From positions 1-27,756 of IMG/VR virus record IMGVR_UViG_3300025133_007463: DNA of 27,756 bases; one strand, written 5' to 3'. Both the position numbers and the translations under genes were made by a program. Of this stretch, positions 9,482 to 24,947 are shown piece after piece. The first letter of the stretch is position 1, and each line of letters starts with the position of its first letter. Under the pieces are notes generated by a model. That model worked only from the letters and a program-made list of their open reading frames with translations, did not search any database and had not been told where the DNA came from. This DNA is from a virus.

Positions 9482-9501
9482 TTTTTACACTATCATAAGT
9501 T
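9482..9501. promoter_or_regulatory. Divergent promoter region for exonuclease (-) and sigma factor (+) genes
   Basis: Only 20 bases separate two divergent start codons. On the plus strand TATCAT (9491-9496) is followed by 5 bases and the sigma factor ATG. On the minus strand TATGAT (9492-9497) is followed by AGTGTAAAAA and the exonuclease ATG. A -10 element so close to ATG leaves no room for a Shine-Dalgarno site on the plus side, implying a leaderless or nearly leaderless mRNA. The core on the minus strand (TATGATAGTGTA) matches that of the other divergent region (10428-10442) at 11 of 12 bases. No -35 element is evident. Confidence 0.5.
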
Positions 9502-9840
9502 ATGGCAAAATATATAGATAACAAAAGATTTGAAGAACTCATTATTGAATATCGCTCTGGAGATGTAACTAATGAGGAAGAGCTTATGAGCATGTTCTAT
9601 ACTCTTATAGGAAAGATTATTGATTCTTTTTCTTATAGTGTCCCAAAAGATGATGCATCCCAAGAATGCATTGTCTTGATACTACAAAAGTTGAAGACAT
9701 TTAACCCTGATAAGGGAAGTGCCTTCAACTTCTTCACCACTACGATTATTAATAATCTAAAGCGTCTATATACTAAAAATAAAAGATACTCAAAGAAGAT
9801 TGATAACTACATTGAGCATCTAAAAGAAGATTCACGTTAA
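9502..9840 (+). CDS. Minimal sigma-70 region 2 protein, T4 gp55-like late sigma factor
   Basis: Probable phage sigma factor directing host RNA polymerase to virion genes. The 112-residue protein has a region-2-like core: DDASQECIVLILQKLKTFNP at 50-69, then DKGSAFNFFTTTIINNLKRL at 70-89, the helix that in sigma factors binds the -10 element and beta-prime coiled coil. No region 4 is present, as in T4 gp55, and at 112 residues it is shorter than gp55 (about 185). One of only two plus-strand genes here; its 3' end overlaps the convergent thioredoxin-like gene by 9 bp. No Shine-Dalgarno sequence precedes the ATG; TATCAT sits 5 bases upstream. Another sigma-like or structural role cannot be excluded, but the F..FT..I.NN pattern is distinctive. 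Confidence 0.72.
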   Translation: MAKYIDNKRFEELIIEYRSGDVTNEEELMSMFYTLIGKIIDSFSYSVPKDDASQECIVLILQKLKTFNPDKGSAFNFFTTTIINNLKRLYTKNKRYSKKIDNYIEHLKEDSR

Positions 9841-10128
9841 TTTGTTATAAATATGGGGAAGATAATCTTCTACTAAAGTCTTCCCCTTCAATTCTACCAA
9901 AGCTGGTAGTTTACTAACTCTGAAGATAGCTGTACTATGAGGTACATCAAACGTATTAACCACATAAACATCTTTCTTCTTTTTAGAGGCTCTAACCTTA
10001 TCTAAAAGGTTATCTGACGCCTCATCCCACAAAGAGACAAATAAAAGTCTAGTAGACTCTTTTGTCTTCTTTTGTCTTTTTAGGAGGTTATTAAGTTGAG
10101 TACTTGTCTTTACGTTTAAGAGTGCCAT
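9832..10128 (-). CDS. Thioredoxin-fold protein lacking CxxC (98 aa)
   Basis: Residues 28-85 follow the thioredoxin beta-alpha-beta order: RLLFVSLWDEASDNLLDKV, a strand VYVVNTFDV, helix STAIFRV, and SKLPALVELKGK with the conserved cis-proline (Pro75) before the last strands. At the active-site position the sequence is SLWDEASDN, with no cysteine, so it cannot act as a disulphide reductase. It is therefore likely a binding module. Its start overlaps the stop of the 99-codon gene by one base, so the two form a small operon beside the sigma factor gene. Assignment rests on pattern only; the N-terminal 27 residues are basic and unassigned. Confidence 0.55.
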   Translation of the reverse strand: MALLNVKTSTQLNNLLKRQKKTKESTRLLFVSLWDEASDNLLDKVRASKKKKDVYVVNTFDVPHSTAIFRVSKLPALVELKGKTLVEDYLPHIYNKLT

Positions 10129-10427
10129 TAAATCTTCTCTACATCATCAGTAGTAACTTCTTCTACTGGCTTATGATAATCTTCTGGGTTAAGTGAACCT
10201 AATTGTTCTCTAGCTACTTCCTCAATCTGCTCTTTAAGTCTTTCAATACCATGAAAGAAAAGACTTCTAAGATATTCATCCTGGGATATAGTATCGGGCT
10301 TAGTTGTAGCCATAAAAGCTTTGAACCCTTCGGACTCTTCAGCACCTAATTTAATTGTTAATTTCATTCTATTTCTACTCCGTTCAGTTATTGTAACATT
10401 ACAATTTTTAAAAATTTGATCTGACAT
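10128..10427 (-). CDS. Hypothetical protein (99 aa), possibly ribbon-helix-helix-like
   Basis: Not recognised with confidence. Residues 20-65 read as one beta-strand (RMKLTIKLG) followed by two helices (EESEGFKAFMAT and SQDEYLRSLFFHGIERLKEQ), which resembles the ribbon-helix-helix DNA-binding layout; the tail is acidic. The start codon lies 5 bases after TATTAT on the minus strand, leaving no space for a ribosome-binding site, and shares its promoter region with the divergent nuclease gene. With the thioredoxin-like gene it forms a two-gene unit next to the sigma factor, so a transcription accessory role (as with T4 gp33) is possible but unproven. Confidence 0.68.
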   Translation of the reverse strand: MSDQIFKNCNVTITERSRNRMKLTIKLGAEESEGFKAFMATTKPDTISQDEYLRSLFFHGIERLKEQIEEVAREQLGSLNPEDYHKPVEEVTTDDVEKI

Positions 10428-10442
10428 ACACTATAATAGTCC
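10428..10442. promoter_or_regulatory. 15-bp bidirectional promoter with overlapping -10 elements
   Basis: Two divergent ATG codons are 15 bases apart. On the plus strand TATAAT (10432-10437) plus AGTCC leads to the nuclease ATG; on the minus strand TATTAT (10433-10438) plus AGTGT leads to the 99-codon gene. The two -10-like elements overlap by five bases, and both have exactly 5 bases before the ATG. Neither gene can have a Shine-Dalgarno site inside this space, so both mRNAs would start at or very near the ATG. Inference: leaderless promoters of a phage-specific class. Confidence 0.55.
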
Positions 10443-10958
10443 ATGGAAGATAATTATAACCTAGAAAATCTAAAAACTAAAAAGAGAATCAACGGAAAAC
10501 GTAAAGGTAATAAGTTTGAAAATGACTTAGCTAAAATACTTAATAAACGTTTTGACGTTAAAGAGTTTTCAAGAACTCCAGGTAGTGGAGCATACGCTAC
10601 TACACATAACTTACCTGATTACTTAACTATATATGGAGATTTAATTACTCCTCAGTACTTTAAGTTTGTTATTGAAAGCAAGAGAGGTTACAATAGTTTT
10701 AACTTATATGACTTATATGATGATACAAGCATCATTTTTAACTTTTTAGGTCAATGTGAAAAAGATTCTGAAAAAGCAAAAAAGGAGTCTTTAGTTATAC
10801 TAAAACAAGACAGAAAGAAAATTCTTGCTGCCTTGAAGACTGACCTTTTAGAAGGCCAATTAACTAATATTATTACGTTTGGTGAGTGTGGAGAATATTG
10901 CCTAGTATTACTAGATGATCTACTTGGACTCCCAAATACTTTCTTCTTTAATTATTAA
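10443..10958 (+). CDS. PD-(D/E)xK nuclease, Holliday-junction-resolvase-like
   Basis: Probable structure-specific DNA nuclease for recombination or packaging. In 171 residues: GKRKGNKFENDLAKIL at 18-33 with Glu26, SRTPGSGAY at 43-51, PDYL with Asp59, and VIESKRG with Glu78 and Lys80. This is the restriction-endonuclease-fold core (E...PD...ExK) with the R-x-P-x-SG element seen in archaeal Hjc-type resolvases. The C-terminal 70 residues are unassigned. It may replace T4 gp49 in function. It is a single-gene plus-strand unit whose 3' end overlaps the convergent 913-residue gene by 39 bp. A Hjc-like role is the best fit; a repair nuclease of the same fold is the alternative. Confidence 0.68.
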   Translation: MEDNYNLENLKTKKRINGKRKGNKFENDLAKILNKRFDVKEFSRTPGSGAYATTHNLPDYLTIYGDLITPQYFKFVIESKRGYNSFNLYDLYDDTSIIFNFLGQCEKDSEKAKKESLVILKQDRKKILAALKTDLLEGQLTNIITFGECGEYCLVLLDDLLGLPNTFFFNY

Positions 10959-13661
10959 ATCGAATAAGGTAGTTACTTTATCCTCTAACATATCACCAAA
11001 GGACTCGGTTGCTTTGTAATAGTCCATACCTCTTATATATTCTCGGTTAGCCTCTACGTTGAATTTTAGGGATGTAATAGTTTCACCCTCCATATTCTTG
11101 TTATTAAACTTATTGGCAGAGTAATATACTGAAACATAATTTAAAGGTCTACCAGTATTAGCTTCCCCAATATGAGGCCCCTTAAAGTTTATTCTGTTGT
11201 CTTTAGTGAACTCAATACTATATGGACCGACTTCAACCCCGTTTCTTCTAGCTTCTGCTTTAGACATATATAGTACGTTCTGTCCAGCATTTATAGCTTG
11301 TAGGATATTTCCTACTACATCGTATACTAATTCATTTTGAGAAACTAGATAAAGATCATTATTAGGTATATCTGTTACCTGCATTAGGGTAGGGTCAGCA
11401 CAACCACCATTCATAAGAGCCAACATAGCTAAACTATGTACGGCTTTTTTTTGTTTTATTGGGTCTGTCTGCCTCTTACTAAACACATCATACTTAAGTC
11501 TTTGTACGAACAAAGCTCCTGCAATATCTACGATATCCTTTTCTCTTAGCTCTTTGGAGTTATTAGATTTAATTTGCTTTAGGTGGAAGCTTAAACCACT
11601 TTCAAAGATATCAGAATCAATAAGGTCGTCTATAAGACCCATAATATATTTCTTCTGATCTGCTTCTAGGTTGGTACCGTCTTTATCCATCATCTTACCT
11701 AAACCAACAGAGAACAGTTTTTGTACGTCCATAAGACGAGTACCTAAATCCTCTACAATTCCATTTATAAAGGTTTCATCTAATCCAAACCTCTCCTGAT
11801 AATCGGCTGAGATTCCTTGTAAAGCTAGAGCGAACTTATCTTCTTGTCCTGTTGCAGCGTCCCTAAAAGCTTTCATCGCTTTTAAGATTCCGTCATATTT
11901 ATATCCACCTAAGTATACTGTAGTTTCCTTAGGCGAAAACATAGTCTTTAGACTGAAGTTCACGGAATCAAAACTTTCTCCCGTAGTACCAAACACATCG
12001 GCGGAAGATTTTAAAGTTTCACCAGATCCCAGGTTTCCAGTCTCTTGTTCCCTTTTAATGTGCTTATCAATCACTTCAGGGGGTACACCTTGATTAGCAA
12101 GCACCGATTCGGTGTATCCTTGAGGATAGTACTCAATAACGTCCGTTTTTGAGCCCAGGAAGATGTCCGTACCTACTTCCGACACACACCTTGGCCTACG
12201 TGCCGTTATGCCCTTAGAATTTATTTTTACGATACCTATGAGCAGGTTCTTGATCCAATCCCTTGCTTGCTCTGCTGTCCAGTCGATTGCGGCAGCTTTA
12301 TCGGCTTGTAATAGGAAATCCTTCACATCGTCGTCCGTCATACCATCAATATAACCAAAGGATTTTTTAAGTGTGTCAGTTAGGTAAACATTTTCTAAAG
12401 TGTCAATATCAGTAAGAGAATATCTAGCTACGTTATTTAGTCCTACGATTAATTCACCTCCAGCCCTATTCATAATCTCTAATAAGGTATCTCTAACATG
12501 TTCCACCATAGTCTCATTAACAAAACTATTAGAAACTAATGCGATTAACCTGGAGAACTTTTCTGATTCTAATCCTAAATGTTTAAAGGTGTACTTTATC
12601 TTATCTTCTGATATCTCTTGTATTGATGGGGCTTTCGTTGACCCTTCGTACTTATCTTTAATTTCAGTTTGAACTAACTTTAAAATATCGAACAATATTG
12701 GGCTAGCCTCTTGTGATATAGCAGCTCCATTAATACCATCATCACTATGGAATATTACAAATGATGTCTGTGGTGAATCACCTATAACAAGACTAAACTT
12801 ATCTGATATATCAAATAAAGTATTTTCATCCTCTAAGTATTTAGAAGTTTTAATTGACTCTATTAAACCGTAGTAATTATTAGCATAGAATTCAGCTTCT
12901 TCTGTAGGGATCACATAATCCTCTACTAACCTTTTAATCTTACCTTTAGATACAAAACCTTTCAAAGCCCTAAATCTAGTTGAAAGAGCCTCTTCGGTTA
13001 AATCACAAACTTGCTTGGATACATACTTCATAGAGTATGCAAACTTCTCATCCCTAGTTCCTACATCATCTTTAGCTGCCCAAGTAAAGTTTTTAAAATT
13101 ATCGTATTTGTTTTTAAGTCTGTGAAGGAAACTCTCTAAAGGCTCTACTGTTTGACAAATTACGTCTTTAATTCTTGATAAAGATTCAATATCTGGATCA
13201 ACTGGGGGTTGAAGCATTTCCCCATCAGGTCCAATTTCCCCCTCTTCATCGGACGCACCAGAAACAACATCCTCATCCCCCATCCCCTCTTGATCTTCAG
13301 GTGGAAGTAGCTTAGCCACAAATCTACCCCAAGGAGACCTTAGATCTTGAATGGACCCGATAGGCATACCATTATCATCTATTACTTTAATACCGTGAGC
13401 CCAACCATGGCCTAAACCCTTAATTACAACACCTTTATTAATAGTAGATTGGGAAGCAGATTTTTTCATCTCCAATCCAGGCATTTGAGGTACAGGTTTC
13501 CAATCATCAGTAGCGTTTGTTACTAATGTTTTAGCTGTTCCTTCCGCTGCCTGTAGCTTAGTATACATTTCAGGGTTAGTAACTTCCATATCTTCCAGAA
13601 GTACTAACCTTCTCTTTTTAAGCTGGCCGTAGCTATTTAATAAATCGTAATAGTATTGCAT
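10920..13661 (-). CDS. Large hypothetical protein (913 aa), probable virion-associated
   Basis: I do not recognise a family. The N-terminal 100 residues are mixed, followed by an acidic Gly/Asp/Glu-rich linker (about 115-150: EDQEGMGDEDVVSGASDEEG), then a long, mostly helical body. No signal peptide, membrane segment or clear enzymatic motif was found. There are scattered short Gly/Ser stretches but no long repeats. It follows the tail tube gene directly after a terminator and has its own promoter-like element: TATAAT at 13667-13672, 5 bases before the ATG. Position after sheath and tube and the large size suggest a structural or baseplate/internal virion component, which is an inference from context. 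The last 39 bp overlap the convergent nuclease gene. Confidence 0.75.
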   Translation of the reverse strand: MQYYYDLLNSYGQLKKRRLVLLEDMEVTNPEMYTKLQAAEGTAKTLVTNATDDWKPVPQMPGLEMKKSASQSTINKGVVIKGLGHGWAHGIKVIDDNGMPIGSIQDLRSPWGRFVAKLLPPEDQEGMGDEDVVSGASDEEGEIGPDGEMLQPPVDPDIESLSRIKDVICQTVEPLESFLHRLKNKYDNFKNFTWAAKDDVGTRDEKFAYSMKYVSKQVCDLTEEALSTRFRALKGFVSKGKIKRLVEDYVIPTEEAEFYANNYYGLIESIKTSKYLEDENTLFDISDKFSLVIGDSPQTSFVIFHSDDGINGAAISQEASPILFDILKLVQTEIKDKYEGSTKAPSIQEISEDKIKYTFKHLGLESEKFSRLIALVSNSFVNETMVEHVRDTLLEIMNRAGGELIVGLNNVARYSLTDIDTLENVYLTDTLKKSFGYIDGMTDDDVKDFLLQADKAAAIDWTAEQARDWIKNLLIGIVKINSKGITARRPRCVSEVGTDIFLGSKTDVIEYYPQGYTESVLANQGVPPEVIDKHIKREQETGNLGSGETLKSSADVFGTTGESFDSVNFSLKTMFSPKETTVYLGGYKYDGILKAMKAFRDAATGQEDKFALALQGISADYQERFGLDETFINGIVEDLGTRLMDVQKLFSVGLGKMMDKDGTNLEADQKKYIMGLIDDLIDSDIFESGLSFHLKQIKSNNSKELREKDIVDIAGALFVQRLKYDVFSKRQTDPIKQKKAVHSLAMLALMNGGCADPTLMQVTDIPNNDLYLVSQNELVYDVVGNILQAINAGQNVLYMSKAEARRNGVEVGPYSIEFTKDNRINFKGPHIGEANTGRPLNYVSVYYSANKFNNKNMEGETITSLKFNVEANREYIRGMDYYKATESFGDMLEDKVTTLFDLIIKEESIWESK

Positions 13662-13672
13662 GGTATATTATA
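13659..13672 (-). promoter_or_regulatory. TATAAT-N5-ATG start of the 913-aa gene
   Basis: On the minus strand TATAAT (13672-13667) is followed by ATACC and the ATG (13661-13659). This is the same spacing as at 9502 and on both strands of 10428-10442. It lies immediately after the U-tract of the upstream terminator, so termination and re-initiation occur within about 45 bp. No Shine-Dalgarno sequence is present. Confidence 0.5.
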
Positions 13673-13707
13673 GAAAAGCCCAGCCCAACTAATCATCGGG
13701 CTGGGCT
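13671..13707 (-). terminator. Rho-independent terminator after the tail tube gene
   Basis: Perfect 10-bp GC-rich inverted repeat AGCCCAGCCC (13677-13686) and GGGCTGGGCT (13698-13707) around an 11-base loop. Reading the minus strand, the hairpin is followed by TTTTCTAT. It lies 25 bp beyond the tail tube stop codon and would end the neck-sheath-tube transcript. The U-tract is short, so efficiency may be partial. Confidence 0.8.
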
Positions 13708-13732
13708 AAAAGTTGCTTTTAGTTAGTTAGGA

Positions 13733-14284
13733 TTATTCGCTATCTTGTACAATGAAATCATAACTAAAGACGCACTCAATCTCATGGAACTCATTTCTGG
13801 AATAATCCCAATCCATAGGATTCCAGGTTCTAATGAACGTACCAATATAAGTAGAGGCTGATATAGGACTTCTACAGTTATCTAATTGATAAACCTTAAT
13901 ATACCCTTTAGGAACTACATCACCATCAGAGTAGAAACATCCAGTTGTAGGATCATAAACCTTCTGGAATAATTCATAAAGTTTACTTAGTAGATTACCA
14001 TCCCTAAGGTTATCAAATGTGATAGTAAGCTCATCAGGAGTTACTTTACCAGGATAAAATACTTTATCGTTTACACGATCAACTTGAATCTTTTCAGATG
14101 CCATGCCACCTCCAGCTACTCTTTTTGCACCTAGAATAAAATTAGTATCTCCGTCAACCCCAGGAATGGAAATTTTAACTTCCCATTCATAAGCCCTGGT
14201 AGAGTCTACCAGATTAGATACTAAAGGTAACTGACCATCTTTATTGGTATTTCTTTGGTATTGGTCTTTATAAAAATCAGACAT
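13733..14284 (-). CDS. Tail tube protein (T4 gp19-like)
   Basis: Subunit of the inner tail tube through which DNA is ejected. The 183-residue length and pattern match the gp19 family: RAYEWEVKISIPGV near 30-43, ASEKIQVDRVNDKVFYPGK near 62-80, TPDELTITFDN, then GYIKVYQLDNC and a C-terminal FIRTWNPMDWDYSRNEFHEIECVFSYD, where many contractile-tail tube proteins have their conserved WP..w..l...s.e..e....fsyD block. It lies 3 bp downstream of the sheath gene, as in T4-like phages, and has a good Shine-Dalgarno AGGAG about 9 bases before the ATG. Confidence 0.88.
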   Translation of the reverse strand: MSDFYKDQYQRNTNKDGQLPLVSNLVDSTRAYEWEVKISIPGVDGDTNFILGAKRVAGGGMASEKIQVDRVNDKVFYPGKVTPDELTITFDNLRDGNLLSKLYELFQKVYDPTTGCFYSDGDVVPKGYIKVYQLDNCRSPISASTYIGTFIRTWNPMDWDYSRNEFHEIECVFSYDFIVQDSE

Positions 14285-14287
14285 AAA

Positions 14288-16366
14288 TTATGCTCCTAAA
14301 TCAGCAGTTTGAGCTACTAGGTTTACATCGAATACTAATACTTCAGCAGTTTTAGTAGGCTTAATTTCGATTCTACACCATAGTTCATTTCTCTCCTGTC
14401 TTGCAGGAGTGTTAGTAGTTTCATTACAAACTACTCTGAATTCATTAATACCTCTCTTAGTTTTAATATCTTGTAGTAGAGGATTAAGAGTATCTTCAAT
14501 AGTTTCCCATAGTAGAGCGTCATTAGGCTCAAAGATAAACTGTTGAGTTGAAGCTAAGATAAGCTTTCTTAGCTGAATCATAAGTCTGCGGACATTGATT
14601 CTATCTAGGGCTGACGCGGTTCTAGTGGAAGTACGTTGACCGAAAATAGTAATTCCTTTTTGCGGGAAGTTTACTATAGGGTTAATTACGTTTCCACCAC
14701 TATACATACTATCTCTATCACCTTTGTTTAGTTTTACTTCTACATCGGTAGGCTTAGTTAGTCTACCTCTACGGAAACCAGCAGGAGCAAACCAAGGATA
14801 GTTAGTAAAGTCTGTGTAAACCATTTGGCGTAATCCGTAAATAACAGGATCATACCATCTATCAGCACCATCAAATGTACTGAAAACTTTTACCCAAGGC
14901 CACATAATAGCAGCATAGGTACTGTTTATTGCAGACGTTCTTTCTAGCTTCTGTCCATTACTCCAATCAATAGCGTCCTGGGCTGTACCAATTCCGTAAG
15001 GAGGTGATACAACAGCTAGGAAATCTTGAGTAGTTTCGGCCAAAGTAACTAGAGCATTTTGTACATCTTCGTTAGTAATTCCAGGCACAGCAGCTAAAGA
15101 AATATTAAGAACGGGATCGTCTAGAGAATGCATACCTTCTTTTGGTTCTGTAGTAGCGTCACCAATTAGAGCTACAGCACGGGCAGCATCAGTCGCAGGA
15201 ATTCCATTAGTACCGGCAGTTAAAGCATAAGTACCTTGGATAAACTTAGTAAACGGTAAGGTAGCAGCACCAGAAGCTACAGCAATACCTCCACCTTGAA
15301 GACCTGAAGCGCCTGTAAAGCCTATAGCACTTAGATCAGCAGTAAAGTCTACAAGAGCGGTAGCATTAATATCAACTAGATCATCAACTAGGTTACCTTT
15401 TATAACATATGATACTAAGTTAGTTTCACCAGTATTAAGTACTGACTCTACAAAAGCAGCAGTATCAACAAGAGAAACTTTAAATGATTCTTTTACCGAA
15501 CCTGCTTCATAAACCTGTAGTAAGTTATGCTCACCACCTAAGGCTTCAATTCTTACAGAGTTACCACTAGTTGACCCGTCTGATTCAGTACCTTCATTAT
15601 AACCTTCACCAGGGTAAATTGACTCTACTAAATAGGCTACACCATTCGCTACTCCAGAGTTTACTTCCGTACCATAAACTGTTACAGTACTTGTATCAGC
15701 AGCAGCAGTACCAGCAATATCTAATTCTTGTAGTACAGCAAGACCAGTAGTGAATGTAGCGTTACTAAAAGCAGATACTTCTACATACGCACCAGAACCA
15801 GCATAAGTACCAACAATAGCGCCTTTAGTATTAGTTTCACTAGTATAATGTACACCAATTTTATCAGTATCTAAACCACCACCAATAATCTTTCTAAGGG
15901 CTTCAGCTTGGGTTCCAGTAGCACCTACAGTACCAGAAGGAACAGCAAACTCTTTAGCGGCGGGGAATTGAGCTACACCATTATTATCATATACTTGGGC
16001 CTTTAACCAAATACCTTCAGTTACGCCAAATCCATTAGCAGAAACATCAAGGGCAGGGCATCCACCAATTTTAATAGCAGCAGAAGCATCTACCGCATCA
16101 GTAGTTCCAGTACAGCGAATAAAATAAATTTGGTTGGTTACCTCTAATAGTTCTAAGGCAGCTTCTAAAGCTTGGCCTTCAATATCCTCATTAGGGGCAC
16201 CAAAAGTAGTTATTAGGTTTTCTGGGCTAGTAATTAAAGTAGCTACGTTTACAGGCCCTTTTGAGGCGAAACCTACAATACCTACAATAGACGAATTTAA
16301 TGACGGGACATAGTTTGAATTATTAGTTTCAACTACCTCAACGCCAGGAGAAAGGAATTTAGCCAT
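14288..16366 (-). CDS. Contractile tail sheath protein (T4 gp18-like)
   Basis: Forms the contractile outer sheath. The N-terminus SPGVEVVETN with SIVGIVGFASKGPVN and the FGAPNED block is the classic sheath start, and the C-terminal 160 residues contain DRINVRRLMIQLRKLILAST, FEPNDALLWETIEDTLNPLL, INEFRVVCNE and ELWCRIEIKPTKTAEVLVFD, the conserved sheath core that forms the inter-subunit mesh. The 692 residues are close to T4 gp18 (659); the middle (about 100-400) is Ala/Thr/Gly-rich and probably holds surface-exposed domains. The ATG is one base after the stop of the 58-codon gene. GAGGAG lies about 29 bases upstream, too far to be a normal ribosome-binding site, so coupling with the small gene is likely. 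Confidence 0.95.
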   Translation of the reverse strand: MAKFLSPGVEVVETNNSNYVPSLNSSIVGIVGFASKGPVNVATLITSPENLITTFGAPNEDIEGQALEAALELLEVTNQIYFIRCTGTTDAVDASAAIKIGGCPALDVSANGFGVTEGIWLKAQVYDNNGVAQFPAAKEFAVPSGTVGATGTQAEALRKIIGGGLDTDKIGVHYTSETNTKGAIVGTYAGSGAYVEVSAFSNATFTTGLAVLQELDIAGTAAADTSTVTVYGTEVNSGVANGVAYLVESIYPGEGYNEGTESDGSTSGNSVRIEALGGEHNLLQVYEAGSVKESFKVSLVDTAAFVESVLNTGETNLVSYVIKGNLVDDLVDINATALVDFTADLSAIGFTGASGLQGGGIAVASGAATLPFTKFIQGTYALTAGTNGIPATDAARAVALIGDATTEPKEGMHSLDDPVLNISLAAVPGITNEDVQNALVTLAETTQDFLAVVSPPYGIGTAQDAIDWSNGQKLERTSAINSTYAAIMWPWVKVFSTFDGADRWYDPVIYGLRQMVYTDFTNYPWFAPAGFRRGRLTKPTDVEVKLNKGDRDSMYSGGNVINPIVNFPQKGITIFGQRTSTRTASALDRINVRRLMIQLRKLILASTQQFIFEPNDALLWETIEDTLNPLLQDIKTKRGINEFRVVCNETTNTPARQERNELWCRIEIKPTKTAEVLVFDVNLVAQTADLGA

Positions 16367-16367
16367 G

Positions 16368-16544
16368 TTAGCAATTCTTAATAGTTAAATGTCTCCTCTT
16401 ATGGAGAGTCTTGATTTGTGTAGAAATATATCCTTCCGGAACTATTACGGTTTGTTTCGGCTTCAAGAATTTTATTTCTTTTCCTTTAGGGGTGTTTAGA
16501 TAAAGCTCAAACCCCTGTATACTATCATTTCTTATAGTTTTCAT
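16368..16544 (-). CDS. Small hypothetical structural-operon protein (58 aa)
   Basis: From the ATG at 16544 the minus strand reads 58 codons to TAA at 16368-16370, one base before the sheath ATG. The protein (start MKTIRNDSIQGFELYL, then KEIKFLKPKQTVIVPEGYIS and KRRHLTIKNC) has strand-rich sequence with a basic C-terminus. Its make-up (I..L.P...v.vP.g..t..i..L..r..L.I) resembles the short proteins often found next to structural genes in T4-like marine phages. It fills the otherwise empty 16367-16591 interval and would couple translation to the sheath gene. Function unknown. Confidence 0.72.
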   Translation of the reverse strand: MKTIRNDSIQGFELYLNTPKGKEIKFLKPKQTVIVPEGYISTQIKTLHKRRHLTIKNC

Positions 16545-16551
16545 TTTTCTA

Positions 16552-16591: not shown

Positions 16592-19500
16592 TTAGGTGTT
16601 TGAATCATAAAGTGAGGTTGGGATATTCGGAGCATCCATTATTTCTCCTGTTTTGTGAGATAATAATCCAATAAAAGGGGCAATAAAAGAAGACCAAACT
16701 CGTTCCGTTTCCCAACCGCCAGAGCCAAAATATGCGGCCTCTTGTCCTGCTGTTTGATTAAATAGTTTGATGGCACTTTCAGCATCAGTAGGTCTTTCCC
16801 AAGTATCAGTCATAGGAATAGAAATACCTACTACGTTAGAATTTTGTTTTTGTCCACCGTCTTCTAAGAAATATTGTGTCATTAAGATATATAACCACTC
16901 TGCAAATTTAATATTATTTGTAAGAAGGAATCCAGTATATAACATACTACCACATCTCATTTCAGCTACAGGAGTATAACCTCCTCCAACATAACCTGAT
17001 TTAAAATCCCATCCAACAACTTCTGTTGGAGGAGGATCATCAGTTGAATTTAATGTATTACTATGTAATACAAAATTTTGTGAGTATTCGTTTCCTATTT
17101 GGTCTGCATAATCCCAAAGATAATAAGGAAGCACTTCAAGAGTTCTTCTAAAACTATCCGCTACTACACTATCTAAACCAAAGAACGCCTGTAATATGCT
17201 CAATAACCCATTACTAAATAATGCAACCATGTAAAGTTGTTGTCCATCGAACTCTACAGGAGGTGCTCCAGAAGCATTTACCCCATCATATGTTCCATAA
17301 ATATGAGATTGGTCTGAAGTTAATGGATTATCCCTGCCGCCTACTGTACCTGTATTAGACGCATATAAATGATACAATAAAGCATATTGATTAGACCAAA
17401 CCCTATACTCGGTTCTTAAATTAGTTGAAGGGTGCTCAATTCTCATCCCTTCCGCAATTATATTACAATAAATGCCCCAACCTCTTTGGAAGTTAGGATA
17501 AATATTAGGAATTCGTCTACCCCATTGAATATCATTATCATTAATATTTTCTAATAATTTATCTAAGTTAAAGTTATTAGATTGATAATCGTTAGGGCCG
17601 TTAGCTTGTCCAGTATATAAACTATTTCTTACTTCATATGGGCATAAAATTGAAACTGCGTGGCAGGCTTCTTGTTTAGCAACCCATTTAGCAATACCTA
17701 AATTACACGACCAAATAAGAGGTTGTAAAGTTTGGTTAAATCTTGAGGAGTGATCTCCTTCATACGGCCCAAATTGAGATGTTGGATTAGGGTATTTAAA
17801 GTTTCTAACTACATTATAAGAAGCGGCTGACACATCAGCATCAACATCATAATATAATGTATTACTCCAAATAGACGGAGTACTCCATAATCTAGTAGGG
17901 GCTAAAGCTCTATCTTCTTGAGAGGTTGTAGTTGAATCATAAGAATACCAAGGCCACCAATATTGCGGCTGGTCTAGGCCGAAACCTAATGACCACGGAA
18001 TGTAAAGGCTATCTCCATTACTATCAGGGTTAGATGCTGCCATAGCTGACGCAGTAACTATATCTCCTGTAACATCTGTAATAGAGCTATCATGTCTTTG
18101 AATCTGATAGGTTAATTGTACCTGCGAAGCTCTCCATAACCACCTATTATTTTGCCAGCCATTTCTAAGGTGAACCAGAAAGCCCCCAGCTTTTCTAGAC
18201 CAAGAATGGCCGTATGGATGATAATAACCAGAAACCATGTTGGAAGTGGTTGTACCTATATTTTCAGTATAACCTCCCCAATTTCTAGTAAAGAAAAATT
18301 TATCATCTACATCACCTGTGTCGGCAGCTGTTTTAAGTGCATCAAAAGTTGTAGAACACCTATAATCCATTACATCCCAACCAGAGCCATCGAAAAATGG
18401 TCCATGTAAATGTTGATAATCTTCAGTAATTTGAGGTAAATAATCTCTTTGAGCACCAAATCCTGAAAGGTTATAATAAGAGTAATCCCCAGCCCTTACT
18501 TCACAATAATCTTTCATTTCTAGAAGTTCTAAGGCTTCGGCGGCACCTCCTACAGTATCGGGACCAATTACATAATGTCTAATAATTCTTTGTCTAGCTG
18601 GGAATAGCTGTTCATAATAATCGCCTGAACCATTATCTACAGGTTGAATAATATACCCGGCAGACGTATCCATACTAGGATCGTCAAATTCTGAATATAA
18701 TCTGTAACCAGAAGGTAGATTGGTTAATTGTATAGATTTAAACCAAACCTCTCCGGAGATTTCAGGATGTGTGTCACCCCCAACCCTAGGATCATTTGTT
18801 AAATCATAATTATCATTAGCTATTAGTAACCAGATATCTATTCCCGAGGTGTCACTTCTTCTAGTTACGAAAGATTGAACATTACCACAGGAATATAATT
18901 CATTAGTACTAACTAAACTATCATTGTAAATTAACGAGTGGAAACGTGTTTCATCAATTCTTTTTCCATCTCTGATAGTTTCTTGCTCCGTTAAGAAAGG
19001 ATAGGCCATCATAGGATCAACTACACCAACCACATCCATAGAAAATTCAACACCGCTTAAGGATAATGTAGCAAATTCATCCGATCCAGGTAAAGAAGTG
19101 CCACCAGTATTAGTTAAATAAGATGTACCTCCTCCACTAGCGGGACCAACAACTTGTACTACATCTACTTTATCATCAGCTGTATATGATACGGGGAACG
19201 TATCACAAGCACTACCATCAATATACAATGTTGGAATATTAGTTATGGTTACAGGAGTAATCGGTACAACAGCTTGTACTAATGGGTTAGAAATAGTATT
19301 TGGCTCAAGATATAATAATGGAGAACTACTTACTGGGCCTGTAATTACACTTAACAATTCTTCTCTATTACTAGACCCATTAATATTAGATACTGTAACG
19401 TCGAAATCCAAATTATACATACTTGGATTTACCGGGATATTAGCCGACACTATAGTATCAGAGACAATTACAGTAGAAAAAGTAACAGGACTTCCTCCGT

Positions 19501-21367
19501 AATCTACACTAGAAATTGATAATTTTGATCTATTATCATCACTACTATAATAAGGATCAATATAACCACTTAAATCAGTACCTTCTACTGTAAAATCTAT
19601 TGATGAAGGAACTAAACCATTATATCCATAAACAGTAGATGTATTTGTGTTAATAAATGGGGCCGGGGATATTTCCCAACCTCCTGCTAAGGATGATGTT
19701 TGTACTAAAGATCCACTTACTGTAACTGTAATATCAGCAGTTGTTCCTATATCACTAGCAGCAAATTCAGGGGTTAATATAGTAAGACCACTAAGAGTAG
19801 GAGAATCTACTACTGTAGCGTTTTGGCCCTTCATTGTAACAGAAATCTTACTAGCCTCTAAGAATCCTCCCCCAGAAAGTTGTAATTCTATAGAGGATGC
19901 CCAAGGACCAAAAGTAGGCGTAACACTACATAATTCTAAAGTCTCTCCTGGATCATATACACTTAGCTCTGGGACGACGATTAAATCTGTTCCAGTAGAG
20001 GAACCATTATAATTACTAACAGTAACATCAACAGTCCTACCAGCAATATCTTCCGTAATTAATATTGTACCAGAAACTACTAAATCACTAATTATAGTAG
20101 TGTCAAGTTCATAATCATCAATATATATTTTAGTTTTTAATGAATCCCCTACATAGTATGGGTCCAAGTAAGAATCAAATGCAGTACCAGATAACATAAT
20201 CTCTAAAGAGGAAGATGTAAACACATCACCTACTACAATAGAAGATGTTAACGTACTAACTTGTGGCACAGGAGAGATTTCAAAAAGATCAGTTACTCGT
20301 ATAGTCTGTTCTGTATCGGGATCTTTTACGGTTAGTGTTTTAAATGTCCCCGCATCAGAAGAGTCAAAAGGAGGCACATTTACTAGATAATTGTACTCAT
20401 CTAATAAAACAGTAGTACTAGCAGGAACATCGCCTACAATTACTAAGGTATCAACTTGAAAACCTGCACCTTCAATATTAAATGTTCTATTTAAATACCA
20501 AGGCCCAAATTCAGGAATCATATAATAAACTTCTAAATCCTCTGGATCAGAAGTTATTCCACTAGTACCTGTACTTCCGGGAAAGGTTCCAGGATCAACA
20601 GGATCTTGTGGTCTAGTAAAATCAGTAGGTCTATTGATAGGAGGATCAATAATTTGGTAAGTATCAATATTAAAGTCAGTAATTCTCCCATTAGAAGTAA
20701 GTAAGAATTCAGGATACGGGATATAAGCTTCAATCTCAAACCTAAAGGATTTCCTTAAAACTCTATCGCTACCATCACCAAGTACTACTTCAGAGTTATT
20801 ATTCTCCGTAACTAGGAATACTTTACTAATACCTAGATCGGTATGAATATCAATATGTGGGTTGAACTCTCCCCTTACTTGCTCAGTAATCTGATCCAAG
20901 TCAGACATATACTTAGACCACACATTGAAAGAATAAATAATGTTTACAGGTCTTGGGGCTAAAGTAACAACCCTCTCTACTTTATTTAGATTCTCGTTTT
21001 TTATAGTTTTGGTAACTAGGATATTTTTTGTTCTTACCCTATTATTATCCCCTTCCGAGTAATCCTGACTTAAAGTTAATGCAGGTAGAACAATATTGTT
21101 TTCCTGGTTAAGTTTGGCTATAGCCCTTTCTGGGTTAGCATGAAAACATTGTAATGATACCTCTTCATTTTCGGAATCAATGTATGAAAGGGTCTGGAAT
21201 CTTAGAATCATAGCCTCTAAGACTTTCCTATATACCTTACTTACATGATTAGCTTTTTTAGAGGCTTCTAAGATATAGTTAATTAGAATAGTCTTACTAT
21301 CCCTACCTAAATCACCTAAGCTAGAAAGATAAACTTCTCCTGAATTGATATCATTATAGTCTGTCAT
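16592..21367 (-). CDS. Tail-completion (gp15/gp3-like) domain fused to Ig-like array and large C-terminal module (1591 aa)
   Basis: Residues 1-245 look like the tail terminator/sheath-stabiliser found at this gene position in T4-like phages: helical start, APRPVNIIYSFNVWSKYMSD at 137-156, DQITEQVRGEFNPHIDIHTD at 158-177, and DRVLRKSFRFEIEAYIPYP at 201-219. A Pro/Gly/Thr linker follows (about 240-275). Residues 279-676 form four Ig-like (IPT/TIG-type) domains in A-B-A-B order: A at 279-365 and 478-567 (P.FGPW start, EISP end), B at 368-466 and 571-676 (DPYY and TVSN.NGSS). Residues 700-1591 are rich in Trp, Tyr, Asn and Gly, with GYYHPYGHSWSRKAGG and many W-x-x-W clusters; this part may be a sugar-binding or sugar-cleaving module, but I recognise no catalytic motif. 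A GAGGAAG Shine-Dalgarno precedes the ATG, which overlaps the upstream stop (TAATG). Confidence 0.72.
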   Translation of the reverse strand: MTDYNDINSGEVYLSSLGDLGRDSKTILINYILEASKKANHVSKVYRKVLEAMILRFQTLSYIDSENEEVSLQCFHANPERAIAKLNQENNIVLPALTLSQDYSEGDNNRVRTKNILVTKTIKNENLNKVERVVTLAPRPVNIIYSFNVWSKYMSDLDQITEQVRGEFNPHIDIHTDLGISKVFLVTENNNSEVVLGDGSDRVLRKSFRFEIEAYIPYPEFLLTSNGRITDFNIDTYQIIDPPINRPTDFTRPQDPVDPGTFPGSTGTSGITSDPEDLEVYYMIPEFGPWYLNRTFNIEGAGFQVDTLVIVGDVPASTTVLLDEYNYLVNVPPFDSSDAGTFKTLTVKDPDTEQTIRVTDLFEISPVPQVSTLTSSIVVGDVFTSSSLEIMLSGTAFDSYLDPYYVGDSLKTKIYIDDYELDTTIISDLVVSGTILITEDIAGRTVDVTVSNYNGSSTGTDLIVVPELSVYDPGETLELCSVTPTFGPWASSIELQLSGGGFLEASKISVTMKGQNATVVDSPTLSGLTILTPEFAASDIGTTADITVTVSGSLVQTSSLAGGWEISPAPFINTNTSTVYGYNGLVPSSIDFTVEGTDLSGYIDPYYSSDDNRSKLSISSVDYGGSPVTFSTVIVSDTIVSANIPVNPSMYNLDFDVTVSNINGSSNREELLSVITGPVSSSPLLYLEPNTISNPLVQAVVPITPVTITNIPTLYIDGSACDTFPVSYTADDKVDVVQVVGPASGGGTSYLTNTGGTSLPGSDEFATLSLSGVEFSMDVVGVVDPMMAYPFLTEQETIRDGKRIDETRFHSLIYNDSLVSTNELYSCGNVQSFVTRRSDTSGIDIWLLIANDNYDLTNDPRVGGDTHPEISGEVWFKSIQLTNLPSGYRLYSEFDDPSMDTSAGYIIQPVDNGSGDYYEQLFPARQRIIRHYVIGPDTVGGAAEALELLEMKDYCEVRAGDYSYYNLSGFGAQRDYLPQITEDYQHLHGPFFDGSGWDVMDYRCSTTFDALKTAADTGDVDDKFFFTRNWGGYTENIGTTTSNMVSGYYHPYGHSWSRKAGGFLVHLRNGWQNNRWLWRASQVQLTYQIQRHDSSITDVTGDIVTASAMAASNPDSNGDSLYIPWSLGFGLDQPQYWWPWYSYDSTTTSQEDRALAPTRLWSTPSIWSNTLYYDVDADVSAASYNVVRNFKYPNPTSQFGPYEGDHSSRFNQTLQPLIWSCNLGIAKWVAKQEACHAVSILCPYEVRNSLYTGQANGPNDYQSNNFNLDKLLENINDNDIQWGRRIPNIYPNFQRGWGIYCNIIAEGMRIEHPSTNLRTEYRVWSNQYALLYHLYASNTGTVGGRDNPLTSDQSHIYGTYDGVNASGAPPVEFDGQQLYMVALFSNGLLSILQAFFGLDSVVADSFRRTLEVLPYYLWDYADQIGNEYSQNFVLHSNTLNSTDDPPPTEVVGWDFKSGYVGGGYTPVAEMRCGSMLYTGFLLTNNIKFAEWLYILMTQYFLEDGGQKQNSNVVGISIPMTDTWERPTDAESAIKLFNQTAGQEAAYFGSGGWETERVWSSFIAPFIGLLSHKTGEIMDAPNIPTSLYDSNT
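19340..20533 (-). repeat. A-B-A-B tandem Ig-like repeats inside the 1591-aa protein
   Basis: Two units of about 200 residues, each an A domain followed by a B domain. A1 and A2 share P-x-FGPW, GxGF and EISP-x-P; B1 and B2 share a D-P-Y-Y motif, a matching strand order and TVSN-x-NGSS. Visible at the protein level only; the DNA copies have diverged, so the duplication is old. No frame break between copies. Confidence 0.7.
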
Positions 21368-21792
21368 TACTTCCTCTTCGCCTTCTTCGTAGCCTTCTTT
21401 TTAGCTTTCTTTCTTACTACTTTCTTTTTTACTACTTTCTTTTTAGGTGTGCCTTCAGGCTTTGGTTCCTTCGGCGGGTTGGGCACCCCAGTAGCAGGGT
21501 TTACTGATTGTCCAGTTTCATTTTTTGATTTTCTATTTAATCGTCTGAGGGCATTAGTTTCGTCTTTAGGCTTAATTAAAGAACTTTTTTCTGTTGGGGT
21601 CAAATGTCCTCTAGCACCAGGATTTCTTTGTAGGTCTGTATCTTTACGACTTTCTTCATCGCTTAATCCTTGTGCTGGGCCTTTTCTACCTCCAGTCTTA
21701 GTTCTATATCCAGGTCTTCTAGTTTCTTGTTCAACAAGCCTATTTCTTAGTTTGTTTATAGCTTTTAAAATAACTTTATCAAATGCGTCCAT
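21367..21792 (-). CDS. Lys-rich protein with histone-H1-like C-terminal tail (141 aa)
   Basis: Residues 1-95 are polar and basic with many Arg, Gly and Pro (RRPGYRTKTGGRKGP); residues 100-141 are almost only Lys, Pro, Val, Ala and Arg, ending PKKKVVKKKVVRKKAKKKAT followed by KKAKRK. This matches the style of histone H1 C-termini and bacterial H1-like proteins, which bind DNA without sequence specificity. Low complexity, no folded domain evident. Between the gp14-like neck gene (overlap 14 bp) and the tail-completion fusion (TAATG overlap), so it is made with the connector proteins. Possible roles: DNA binding at the neck, condensation of packaged or host DNA. No sequence family can be claimed from low-complexity similarity alone. 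Confidence 0.7.
   Translation of the reverse strand: MDAFDKVILKAINKLRNRLVEQETRRPGYRTKTGGRKGPAQGLSDEESRKDTDLQRNPGARGHLTPTEKSSLIKPKDETNALRRLNRKSKNETGQSVNPATGVPNPPKEPKPEGTPKKKVVKKKVVRKKAKKKATKKAKRK
21414..21443. repeat. Perfect 15-bp tandem duplication in the Lys-rich tail
   Basis: TTACTACTTTCTTTT occurs twice back to back on the plus strand (21414-21428, 21429-21443). On the coding strand it encodes the repeated Lys/Val pentads of the tail. The length is a multiple of three, so copy-number change would keep the frame, a simple route for the tail to grow or shrink. Confidence 0.85.
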
Positions 21793-22345
21793 CGTAATCT
21801 AATAGTGGGTCGGAGGTTTTTTGTAGATTAGTATCCACAATCTTGTCTGAATCTCTAAGTAGTTTGGCATGGGCGATTAAATGATAAATGCCATAAGCCT
21901 CGAAGGAGTCTTCTTGAACCTCAAAGATTTCATATTTTTGTTCTTGGAAGAAAGGTTTTAAAATATCACCTACAATCAAAGGTCTTCCAAGGAACCCTTC
22001 GATATATGATTTGTTGAAAGTAAAGATTTGTTCGTTAGTAAGCTCAATACCAAACTCATTTAAATGCTCCTCTAAAACAGTAGGAGTATAGTGACCTACT
22101 ACTATTATAGGCTCTTTTGATATTACTTTCTCTCGATCTTCCATATAAACTTCATCATAGTTTTCACTTTGATAATACTTGTATAAATACATCTTCGATC
22201 CAGACAGTCTAATGTTTTCAGCATCAATCTCATTGAACAGCTGAATATCAGCATTATCTATATCGAATAAATTAAGAGAACTTTCCTCTACCTCTTCTGG
22301 CAGAGGAACAATCCTATGGTTTACGTGGAAGTTCTTTTTACTCAT
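21779..22345 (-). CDS. Neck protein, T4 gp14-like
   Basis: Probable head-completion/neck protein joining the filled head to the tail. Of 188 residues, the second half carries the family-like run: FGIELTNEQIFTF near 98-110, GRPLIVGDILKP at 120-131, YEIFEVQEDSF at 138-148, then YGIYHLIAHAKLLRDSDKIV, ending in an Asp-rich tail with DPLLDYDG. In gp14 proteins the same order (R-P-x-x-G-D, F-E-I-x-x-V-E, y-x-l-x-x-k-l-x-r-x-S) is found. It follows the gp13-like gene by 1 bp, the T4 order 13-14. T4 gp14 is about 256 residues, so this version is shorter at the N-terminus. Assignment by motif memory and gene order. Confidence 0.62.
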   Translation of the reverse strand: MSKKNFHVNHRIVPLPEEVEESSLNLFDIDNADIQLFNEIDAENIRLSGSKMYLYKYYQSENYDEVYMEDREKVISKEPIIVVGHYTPTVLEEHLNEFGIELTNEQIFTFNKSYIEGFLGRPLIVGDILKPFFQEQKYEIFEVQEDSFEAYGIYHLIAHAKLLRDSDKIVDTNLQKTSDPLLDYDGRI

Positions 22346-22346
22346 T

Positions 22347-23207
22347 TTAGAACGTACTCATGAACGGAAGCTCTTCGAACTCATCTAGTAGCTCTCGTTT
22401 TAGGCTATCAATCTCGGCCCTACCCTCTTCCCTAAGCAATTGACCGTCTAGTTTCGCCCCACCACCAGGACCGGGTAGAACGTCATACTTGCTTCGAACA
22501 GCTCCTAGAATAAGCTTAGACGTAGCTAAAGCATACCTTTGGATCCAGTTTCGATAGGCTGGGTGGATAGTGTCGGAGTTTAACCCTCTATATATACAAA
22601 CTACAGGGTCAGGGGTTTGTGAGGGAAACGGAGCTAATTGTAAATATTTATTATCTATTACATCAAAAGTTCCTTCCTGACTTAGAATCTTTCGGATCTG
22701 CTCAATATGTGATTGTAACATATAGAACTCACCGACACTAAAATCAGAAAACAAGAAATTATCTTGGAAATACTTAATGAAGAAGTCAAACTCTAGTGTA
22801 TTAGATTGTGCTTGAATAGTTAATAAACTCTTTTTATAAACTACATACTCTAGATTATCTAGAACATATCTAGGTAGTTCATATAAGTTCTCACCAGCAG
22901 AGGCATCAAAAACCATCATTTGCTGGGTCCATAACGGGGCGTGATATGAGAAAGTAGTTACAGCCTCATCCATCGCTGTTTTTAATTGAAAGTCGGTTAG
23001 CTCTACTCTTACTGTAGGGTAACCTAACATAGATAATACATACGCTCTAACAGTCTCTTCAAACTTATTAAAGGATATATTGTCTGCTAAAGTAGTCTCA
23101 CCTAGAGAAGAGGTAATCTGACCATTAAGTTCTGCGTCACCGGCTACTCTACCTTTATATTCCGTAAAGGAATCGCCATAATTACTTAGATTCGGTTTGC
23201 TTGGCAT
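22347..23207 (-). CDS. Neck/head-completion protein, gp13-like
   Basis: The 286-residue protein has the pattern of the conserved structural protein placed after the capsid gene in many T4-like marine phages: VELTDFQLKTAMDEAVTTFS at 68-87, IEQIRKILSQEGTFDVIDNK at 168-187, NWIQRYALATSKLILGAVRS at 220-239 and LPGPGGGAKLDGQLL near 244-258. T4 gp13 (about 309 residues) occupies the equivalent position. It likely sits in the neck under the portal. It overlaps the 62-codon gene by 26 bp, so translation is probably coupled; AGGAAG lies about 13 bases before the ATG. Which named neck protein it equals needs structural comparison. Confidence 0.62.
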   Translation of the reverse strand: MPSKPNLSNYGDSFTEYKGRVAGDAELNGQITSSLGETTLADNISFNKFEETVRAYVLSMLGYPTVRVELTDFQLKTAMDEAVTTFSYHAPLWTQQMMVFDASAGENLYELPRYVLDNLEYVVYKKSLLTIQAQSNTLEFDFFIKYFQDNFLFSDFSVGEFYMLQSHIEQIRKILSQEGTFDVIDNKYLQLAPFPSQTPDPVVCIYRGLNSDTIHPAYRNWIQRYALATSKLILGAVRSKYDVLPGPGGGAKLDGQLLREEGRAEIDSLKRELLDEFEELPFMSTF

Positions 23208-23370
23208 TTTTCTTAGGTCTTCCTGGTTTTGGAGAAATCTTGTTTAAATACTTATAATTTAGAACCTCATCAGTCTCCACTATTTGATTAGGGCGAACTT
23301 CTACAATTATCCCGTCGATAAATAATAACATTGGGAACTTAGAAGTGCATTTGTATAAATATTTACTCAT
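23182..23370 (-). CDS. Small hypothetical protein (62 aa) opening the neck operon
   Basis: Not recognised. KFPMLLFIDGIIVEVRPNQIVETDE reads as beta-strands with a P-x-Q turn, and the C-terminus is basic (KPGRPKKNAKQTE). It is the first gene after the capsid terminator and overlaps the gp13-like gene by 26 bp. Its strand pattern and length recall the 58-aa protein before the sheath gene, but similarity is too weak to call them paralogues. TATAGA lies 11 bases before the ATG (TATAGAAATTCTACAAGATG), a possible weak promoter element; no clear Shine-Dalgarno. Confidence 0.68.
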   Translation of the reverse strand: MSKYLYKCTSKFPMLLFIDGIIVEVRPNQIVETDEVLNYKYLNKISPKPGRPKKNAKQTESK

Positions 23371-23390
23371 CTTGTAGAATTTCTATAAAA

Positions 23391-23428
23391 TAAAAAAGGA
23401 GGATGGTGGTTATTCCCACCATCCTCCT
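23391..23428 (-). terminator. Strong rho-independent terminator after the major capsid gene
   Basis: Perfect 13-bp stem AGGAGGATGGTGG (23397-23409) and CCACCATCCTCCT (23416-23428) with a 6-base loop. Reading the minus strand the hairpin is followed by TTTTTTATTTTAT. It lies 22 bp beyond the capsid stop codon and separates head genes from neck and tail genes. The strongest terminator in the window. Confidence 0.93.
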
Positions 23429-23449
23429 AGATCACTCTAAGCTATTGGT

Positions 23450-24937
23450 TTAGCCTAGTTCGTTGTTGGTAGCGTTCTTACCGAACGGATCACTAAGGAA
23501 CGTAGCGGTAGGACCTACAACTCTAATTACACGGTAGAATCTAGACGCAGGAGTAATTTCCGCCTTACCGTAACGGGTAAGGATACCTTTTCTTGGTTGG
23601 AAAGTAGCCGGGTCATGAATCAACGGTAGCTCTTGGAGAGGAATATACGGAGCGTATACGTATCCAGCATCCATCGGCGTTGAGCCTTTATATCCTACAA
23701 GGATTTCGTCTAGCGGGTACATCGGATCAATATATAGATCGTACTTACCAGCAAACTTACCTTTGTATTCAATAGAAGTGTTACCCATGTTAGTCGGCTT
23801 GTCAGGAGCAGCAATACCACCCTCTAACTTAGCAGCAGACTCTAGCATGGAACCAATTAGCGGTGACGTAAGCAACCAAGTACCAGGACCACGCATAGTA
23901 GTACGGTAGATATCTTGTGAAGCTTGGTTAATCAAGGCTAAAAGGTTAGCATAGACATGACCTTGGTGCTGTGGGGCACTAGGCAGAGCTGAACTGGAGA
24001 AGTCAATAACATAAATGTTAGTGTCGGTTCCAGCAGGGTTTGTAGTACCAGCATTGGCAAAGTCATATAGGTATTGAGCAGGAACGAATCCAGTACCATC
24101 ATCACCAAAGTTGTTTGCACTATCTTGGTCTAGGTAATCTCTATTCCAACCACCAACAGTACCACTTATATCATAAGCAATACCACGAAGGTCTTCAATA
24201 AGTTCACGGTCAATTTCTAAGCTTAGTTCTTTTGAAAGTAGATCGGTTAGTTCACTTTCTAGGCTTAAGTCATGATAGGCTTTTAGGTCTTGAGCCGCTT
24301 CGATGGTCCATAGGGCTCTCATCTTACGGGTCCTTGCTTCTACAGCTTGGTTCTCAATGTGGAAGTTGATTTCCGGAATACCAGTTCCAGACATCGCTTC
24401 ACCAGCACTAACATTAACACCTAAAATAGATGTACTGTCAGGCCAAGCAGCAATTTGACCGCCCATAGTACCGGACGCTGATCCAGTACCTTCATCAGTT
24501 AGTACATCAGAAGTATCAAACGGAGCGTCTGAATCTAACTCAATGTTATCACCAGCAGCATCACCGATAGCACTAGCAGTTAAATTACGATAGGTAAGGT
24601 TATACTTACTGTATACGGTTTGTGCATCTGTGCCAGAAACTCTATCATGGCCGATGTAGAAAATCTGGGAGACAGGTCCGTTCATTGGCTGAACACCACA
24701 GATTTTGTTTGCAAGAAGTTCGGGATATACTCTTCGAACAATAGGGAAAGCGAATTTTTGGAAGGTGCCTAGCTTACCAACGGTCGTCGCAGCGTCTTCA
24801 TCTACTCTAGTAGCTTTGAAAGCAGCCGCTTGGTTTTCCATTAGTTGAGCAGTTACCGTCTTAGTCCAATCGTCCTCAATTCCTTCGAGTACTGCGCCCC
24901 ATTTAGTTAGTAGGGCTTCGTTATTGGCATAGTCCAT
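23450..24937 (-). CDS. Major capsid protein (T4 gp23-like, HK97 fold)
   Basis: Main shell protein of the head, processed by the gp21-like protease. The 495 residues are near T4 gp23 (521). Signature blocks: FPIVRRVYPELLANKICGVQ at 64-83 with PMNGPVSQIFYI, later the helix with KMRALWTIEAAQDLKAYHDL, LSKELSLEIDRELI, GPGTWLLTSPLIGSMLES and the C-terminal PASRFYRVIRVVGP. The ATG has no Shine-Dalgarno sequence; instead TATAAT (24947-24942) sits 4 bases upstream, suggesting a dedicated promoter for this very highly needed protein. Preceded by the scaffold gene (19-bp gap), followed by a strong terminator, so it can be made as a separate short transcript. Confidence 0.96.
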   Translation of the reverse strand: MDYANNEALLTKWGAVLEGIEDDWTKTVTAQLMENQAAAFKATRVDEDAATTVGKLGTFQKFAFPIVRRVYPELLANKICGVQPMNGPVSQIFYIGHDRVSGTDAQTVYSKYNLTYRNLTASAIGDAAGDNIELDSDAPFDTSDVLTDEGTGSASGTMGGQIAAWPDSTSILGVNVSAGEAMSGTGIPEINFHIENQAVEARTRKMRALWTIEAAQDLKAYHDLSLESELTDLLSKELSLEIDRELIEDLRGIAYDISGTVGGWNRDYLDQDSANNFGDDGTGFVPAQYLYDFANAGTTNPAGTDTNIYVIDFSSSALPSAPQHQGHVYANLLALINQASQDIYRTTMRGPGTWLLTSPLIGSMLESAAKLEGGIAAPDKPTNMGNTSIEYKGKFAGKYDLYIDPMYPLDEILVGYKGSTPMDAGYVYAPYIPLQELPLIHDPATFQPRKGILTRYGKAEITPASRFYRVIRVVGPTATFLSDPFGKNATNNELG

Positions 24938-24947
24938 TTTAATTATA
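24935..24947 (-). promoter_or_regulatory. TATAAT-N4-ATG start of the major capsid gene
   Basis: On the minus strand AAATATAATTAAAATG spans the 19-bp gap between the scaffold stop and the capsid ATG. The -10-like element is 4 bases from the ATG, against 5 at the other sites, and no purine-rich ribosome-binding site is present. Transcription beginning 5-7 bases after TATAAT would start within or at the ATG. Inference from spacing. Confidence 0.45.

Follow-up and report, generated by a model that had tools for sequence, protein, structure and literature searches.

Does a TATNAT hexamer that recurs just ahead of certain start codons mark a class of phage promoters whose transcripts begin at the initiation codon itself? 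The question is raised by a 27,756-base virus record (IMG/VR record IMGVR_UViG_3300025133_007463; hereafter 'the window', meaning this whole stretch), whose gene content points to a T4-related phage as its source. A preliminary description had drawn attention to four starts in the window, at 9502 and 10443 on the plus strand and at 10427 and 13661 on the minus strand, and had proposed a leaderless promoter class with a −10 element but no −35. We find that the hexamer is part of a longer box, CTATWATA (W being A or T), which stands four or five bases before ATG codons in a family of related phages, and that its palindromic form, CTATWATAG, appears to serve two divergent genes at once. We consider it probable that these boxes are leaderless, −10-only and partly two-way promoters, with a small sigma factor encoded by the phage as their most likely reader.

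A box at a fixed distance from the start codon

The coordinates and letters of the four sites are exact: TATCAT-AAGTT-ATG (9502+), TATAAT-AGTCC-ATG (10443+), TATTAT-AGTGT-ATG (10427−) and TATAAT-ATACC-ATG (13661−). A preceding C had been noted at three of them; the shared context is real but extends to all four, which read CTATNATA-N4-ATG, where N4 denotes any four bases. This pattern is expected 0.17 times in the window, and four occurrences were never reached in 100 dinucleotide shuffles, in keeping with the earlier judgement that the spacing is hard to obtain by chance. For TATNATA-N4-ATG the chance expectation is 0.85. By itself TATNATA is not enriched in the window (18 found, 25 expected), and therefore the signal is carried by the fixed distance to the ATG.

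Relatives were gathered by IMG/VR scans with the sigma factor, capsid and nuclease proteins, which yielded about 100 loci; a scan of genome contigs with a single capsid protein as query gave no match. Sixteen longer relative records were searched whole for the box, and CTATWATA-N4-ATG occurs in them 34 times, versus zero for a reversed control pattern. Removal of near-duplicates left 55 related contigs (1.14 Mb) for the spacing counts. In these, the distance d from CTATWATA to ATG is 4 at 53 sites and 5 at 24, and all other distances have 0–14 sites each; the two peak distances jointly account for 77 sites, as against 1–7 in Markov shuffles. A smaller second peak, at d = 16–17, arises from these boxes read from their other side. 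No comparable peak was found in the 55 contigs when W was replaced by C or G or the leading C was dropped, nor did GTG or TTG following CTATWATA give any spacing peak.

Reading frames of at least 40 codons open at 80 of the 91 sites with d = 3–6. The sites at d = 4 or 5 are distributed over 18 unrelated protein families, including a 913-amino-acid (aa) protein, a 99-aa protein, the sigma factor, the exonuclease part of DNA polymerase A, a PDDEXK nuclease, a uvsW-like helicase and a glycosyltransferase. Eighteen contigs of the set, counting the window, have the box of the 913-aa gene in the same position. Protein conservation begins close behind the predicted ATG (from residue 4 in the sigma factor and from codon 2–3 in the 913-aa family), and the predicted start codons are thus very probably correct. 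As the preliminary description had stated, there is no sign of a −35 element: the best matches were no better than those in shuffled sequence, and no upstream consensus was seen. An A that seemed conserved at codon 3 behind the N4 boxes traced largely to a few big families and was dropped.

The features of the window that bear on the argument are as follows.

8483–9481, minus strand: exonuclease part of DNA polymerase A, divergent partner of the sigma gene across a gap of 20 bases
9490–9497, plus strand: −10-like box of the sigma gene, CTATCATA, with C at the W position; N4, then ATG at 9502
9502–9840, plus strand: gp55-like sigma region 2 protein of 112 aa (from profiles and predicted structure), candidate reader of the boxes
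10128–10427, minus strand: 99-aa protein with a predicted leaderless start, conserved in relatives; no Pfam or PHROG match
10431–10439, both strands: palindrome CTATAATAG, putative shared two-way −10 box, N4 from ATG 10443 (plus) and N4 from ATG 10427 (minus); kept in nuclease orthologues
10443–10958, plus strand: PDDEXK/RusA-like nuclease gene with a predicted leaderless start (PF24608, E 1e-20; PHROG 244)
10920–13661, minus strand: 913-aa protein with a predicted leaderless start and a conserved N-terminus; no Pfam or PHROG match
13666–13673, minus strand: one-way −10-like box of the 913-aa gene, CTATAATA; N4, then ATG at 13661
13674–13707, minus strand: terminator-like stem-loop AGCCCAGCCC/GGGCTGGGCT followed by TTTT at the end of the tail operon, read in the sequence
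24947–24938, minus strand: TATAAT-TAAA-ATG upstream of the capsid gene, excluded from the promoter class

One palindrome between divergent genes

Except for its central W, CTATWATAG is its own reverse complement, and the −11A and −7T of the two strands are reciprocally overlaid in it. The palindrome is found at 40 of 47 divergent sites versus 4 of 28 one-way sites (p = 1e-9). One-way boxes retain CTATWATA and its spacing and not the trailing G, a loss that speaks for a promoter rather than an operator. Thirty-eight of 60 palindromes are flanked on each side by an open reading frame (ORF) start no more than 40 bases away, and 13 of them are predicted to be leaderless both ways, whereas five control palindromes of like composition had 0, 0, 0, 1 and 0 such cases.

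Blind IMG/VR scans, in which the measure was the share at divergent ORF pairs among the matches listed, gave 18 divergent pairs among 120 matches listed for the minimal two-way pattern and 2 among 120 listed for a permuted control. The 18 listed pairs are sigma/exonuclease, nuclease/99-aa protein and terminase large subunit/glycosyltransferase, the last of which is present also in a contig of the family (G003). In the window, the start codons at 10427 and 10443 are 15 bp apart and are predicted to be leaderless in both directions. The preliminary description had listed these as separate starts; they share one palindromic two-way element. That a single palindrome apparently serves both directions at divergent gene pairs was not part of the preliminary description.

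Predicted transcription start and leaders

We propose that CTATWATA, four to five bases and an ATG constitute a −10-only phage promoter from which transcription would start at about the fifth base after the box. With N4 spacing the start base would be the A of the AUG, giving a leaderless mRNA that would be translated from its 5′-terminal AUG without a Shine-Dalgarno (SD) sequence. At divergent genes, RNA polymerase would bind CTATWATAG in either orientation, such that one 9-bp element in a gap of 14–16 bp could serve two leaderless genes; in longer gaps the same element could serve one leaderless and one leadered gene.

The usual initiator is a pyrimidine followed by a purine. A pyrimidine stands directly 5′ of the ATG at 48 of the 50 N4 sites and in every one of the 14 N4 families, and with the A of the ATG it forms such an initiator six bases after TATWAT. 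Among operon-internal genes, for which (as for other gene classes) counts are approximate because ORFs were called by a simple longest-ORF script, the corresponding pyrimidine frequency is 40%, 16% are called with GTG or TTG starts, and 41% have an SD-like sequence. At 69 box sites examined for an SD sequence, none was found, and the box occupies the SD position. Of the three operon-internal genes of the window with which a contrast had been drawn, the tail tube gene (AGGAG) and the 1591-aa gene (GAGG) bear it out, and thyX, with GAGAGAG, does so weakly.

The nuclease gene offers a natural experiment. Its box is kept in all 33 distinct orthologue sequences. In the window and three relatives (L009, L128 and L091), the ATG is 4–5 bases from the box and there is no SD sequence. 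The other 29 orthologues, which are phylogenetically clustered and do not represent 29 independent events, have the ATG 16–28 bases from the box, and 26 of these 29 have GAGG, AGGT, AAGG or similar in between. In many of these leadered orthologues the SD-like sequence begins at or just past the fifth base behind the box, the position that the A of the AUG occupies in the leaderless version. When all leadered cases are pooled, 81% have a pyrimidine as the fourth base and 95% a purine as the fifth. The greater distance of the ATG from the same box in most orthologues, accompanied by an SD-like sequence, supports the predicted start site. For the exonuclease-part gene, a short leader is expected in the window and a leaderless box is seen in several relatives.

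A candidate reader of the box

The ORF at 9502, which the preliminary description had not recognized as a sigma-factor gene, certainly encodes a sigma region 2 protein. It matches PF04542 with 26.2 bits (cut-off 24) and PHROG 234 ('late sigma') with an E-value of 9e-5; among 23 orthologous members, 6 match PHROG 234 (E down to 3e-5) and 17 match PHROG 351. The AlphaFold model has a predicted local distance difference test (pLDDT) score of 85, and its top Foldseek matches are sigma region 2 structures, with E-values above 0.01. When the sigma profile was run against the sequences of solved structures, nothing convincing emerged. An alignment with T4 gp55 is in register over the N-terminus (YVNNKELLQAII versus YIDNKRFEELII), with a weak profile match; the protein is a plausible reader of a −10-only promoter. 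The 112-aa protein is without region 4, which fits a reader of promoters that have no −35 element. Its own gene has a CTATNATA-N4-ATG start in 17 of 25 sequences, window included. A search for the gp45 clamp (PF02916) found no match, and the control genomes gave none either, so the result speaks neither for nor against a clamp. We suggest that this gp55-like sigma factor most likely directs the host RNA polymerase to the box, and that host sigma-70 perhaps reads it as well.

Weighing the alternatives

The fixed spacing, its spread over 18 families, the initiator, the absence of a GTG or TTG peak and the SD trade-off make the leaderless −10-only class, as originally proposed, the best reading of the sequence. 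Several points weigh against it. Where transcription starts, that translation is leaderless and which sigma factor is involved are all predictions from sequence, and the sites in relatives are phylogenetically correlated. In eight relatives (L105, L152, L034, L141, L110, L107, L086 and L071) the box of the 99-aa gene is 9–12 bases from the ATG with no SD sequence, a spacing that predicts a short leader instead of none. A diverged relative of 130.6 kb has few box sites (two N4 and one N5). The sigma gene is without a CTATWATA box in one clade (L118, L051, L056, L125, L076 and L079). As a separate observation, the sigma gene of this clade is preceded by another conserved stretch, CATATAAATTATTAAGGTTC or a near variant, and the 99-aa gene keeps its box.

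A further point against a phage-encoded reader is that the box resembles an ordinary sigma-70 element, TATAAT being the consensus −10, so the phage sigma factor need not be involved. The boxes might then be leaderless, partly two-way promoters read by the primary sigma factor of the host, with the phage sigma reading something else. The presence of replication genes (e.g. the polymerase exonuclease) as well as late genes behind the box favours this view, as does evidence that a symmetric −10 with overlaid −11A and −7T works both ways with sigma-70 (PMC10268837). However, neither a −35 element nor an upstream consensus accompanies the box, and the phage has a gene, usually itself located behind a box, for a sigma that consists of region 2 alone and suits such sites. 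We regard host reading as possible, if somewhat doubtful. It is improbable that CTATWATAG is instead an operator for a dimeric regulator that represses both genes from promoters located elsewhere. A 9-bp palindrome between divergent genes would suit such a protein, but one-way sites behave as a directional promoter would, with CTATWATA and its spacing kept and the trailing G in only 4 of 28; furthermore, a second promoter would not fit into gaps of 14–16 bp without reaching into the coding sequence opposite, and the fixed ATG distance and the preceding pyrimidine would be left unexplained. Even less probable is a role in translation, as an AU-rich enhancer of ribosome binding within a longer leader. 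The box does lie at the ribosome-binding-site position of starts that have no SD sequence; yet most nuclease orthologues have it some 12–24 bases further off with a separate SD sequence after it, a longer leader in a 14–16 bp divergent gap could only start within the gene on the other strand, and one box serves both strands. Chance matches are to be expected in DNA of 36.5% G+C, where TATNATA is common by itself, but the shuffled (77 sites versus 1–7) and reversed (34 versus 0) controls refute this explanation for all but the capsid instance and leave it a negligible probability.

The most specific form of our proposal is a dedicated promoter class, read by a region-2-only phage sigma on host RNA polymerase and leaderless by design, in which a divergent pair of protein-coding genes is driven by a single 9-bp palindrome, with promoter, transcription starts and start codons fitting into about 21 bp; on this we consider the case evenly balanced. 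If the proposal is true, a promoter for two genes would hold two AUGs, two transcription starts and one −10 box in an extremely small space, an arrangement kept across a diverse phage family. The occurrence of the same box in leaderless form in some relatives and further out with an SD sequence in others provides a natural test of promoter position against SD use. It also becomes testable whether a region-2-only sigma factor suffices for −10-only, orientation-neutral initiation, and for uncultured phages the pattern would offer a rule, based on sequence, by which start codons and transcription units could be located.

Other features of the window and its relatives

The T4-type genes of the window comprise a gp23-type capsid (about 30% identical to cyanophage gp23), a gp21-type protease, sheath, tube and SbcC/SbcD (gp46/47), with a DNA methyltransferase gene (3107–3841, minus strand) lying between the SbcC-like and SbcD-like genes. 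Also present are ThyX and a split DNA polymerase A (6523–8214 and 8483–9481, minus strand), whose two parts are separated by a small gene with no family match. The capsid gene had been noted to carry TATAAT four bases from its start; this is a chance match, as the box is not conserved in relatives, and most capsid orthologues have an AAGGAA-type SD sequence there. The T-run of the stem-loop at 13674–13707 directly adjoins the box of the 913-aa gene, and similar GGGCTGGGCTTTT tracts precede the box in many relatives.

The 130.6-kb relative (L397–L404) lies on contig QCKN01000003.1 of a single-cell genome that carries psbA and has the title Prochlorococcus sp. AG-409-P03, and this co-occurrence in one single-cell genome suggests a possible host. 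The relative keeps the box at the glycosyltransferase start beside the terminase gene and at one more divergent pair. Four tRNA genes (Arg, Leu, Asn and Ile) are located near 14.7–15.8 kb of the contig.

Comparison with known systems

The phage family resembles the Far-T4 phages and Rhodothermus phage RM378 (PMC4360716) in being of T4 type with a divergent gp23 and a split DNA polymerase A, and in being known mainly from environmental sequences. Core genes for transcription regulation were undetected in the Far-T4 report (PMC4360716), whereas the present family has a recognizable sigma factor. RM378 was considered as a carrier of these promoters and rejected, there being no CTATWATA-N4/5-ATG site in about 100 kb.

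T4 late promoters (TATAAATA) are read by gp55 with gp33 and gp45 (reviewed in PMC2988020). The analogy with them that had been drawn earlier holds in part. Both systems have a single AT-rich −10-type box and no −35 element in a T4-related phage with a small sigma confined to region 2, and late-type genes (terminase, uvsW-like helicase) stand behind some boxes of the family. The analogy fails for the box itself, which is CTATWATA and often palindromic, and for its spacing: the TATAAATA boxes seen in about 100 kb of T4 are 14–32 bases 5′ of ORF starts and never nearer, but 73 of 151 family boxes near an ORF start lie at 4–5 bases. Use of TATAAATA as the box gave no spacing peak in the 55 contigs, and the 112-aa sigma factor of the family matches gp55 weakly.

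Leaderless transcripts are known from mycobacteria (PMC4633059) and from the late TATG promoters of phiKZ (PMC5312081), and the family shares with them a predicted 5′-terminal AUG without an SD sequence. phiKZ uses a phage multisubunit polymerase, in contrast to the sigma-type −10 box and two-way form seen here, and the hosts of the family apparently make normal use of SD sequences.

Each of the two features, leaderless transcripts and bidirectional promoters, is known on its own; for the two joined in a phage, our search of a limited literature collection returned only a broad review. Symmetric bidirectional promoters of bacteria have a near-palindromic −10 with −11A and −7T overlaid, the same geometry as in CTATWATAG, and their starts are usually 18 bp apart, with one product often antisense or non-coding (PMC10268837). 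In the phage family, about 14–16 bp separate the predicted starts, and a conserved gene lies on either side, with both genes often predicted to be leaderless.

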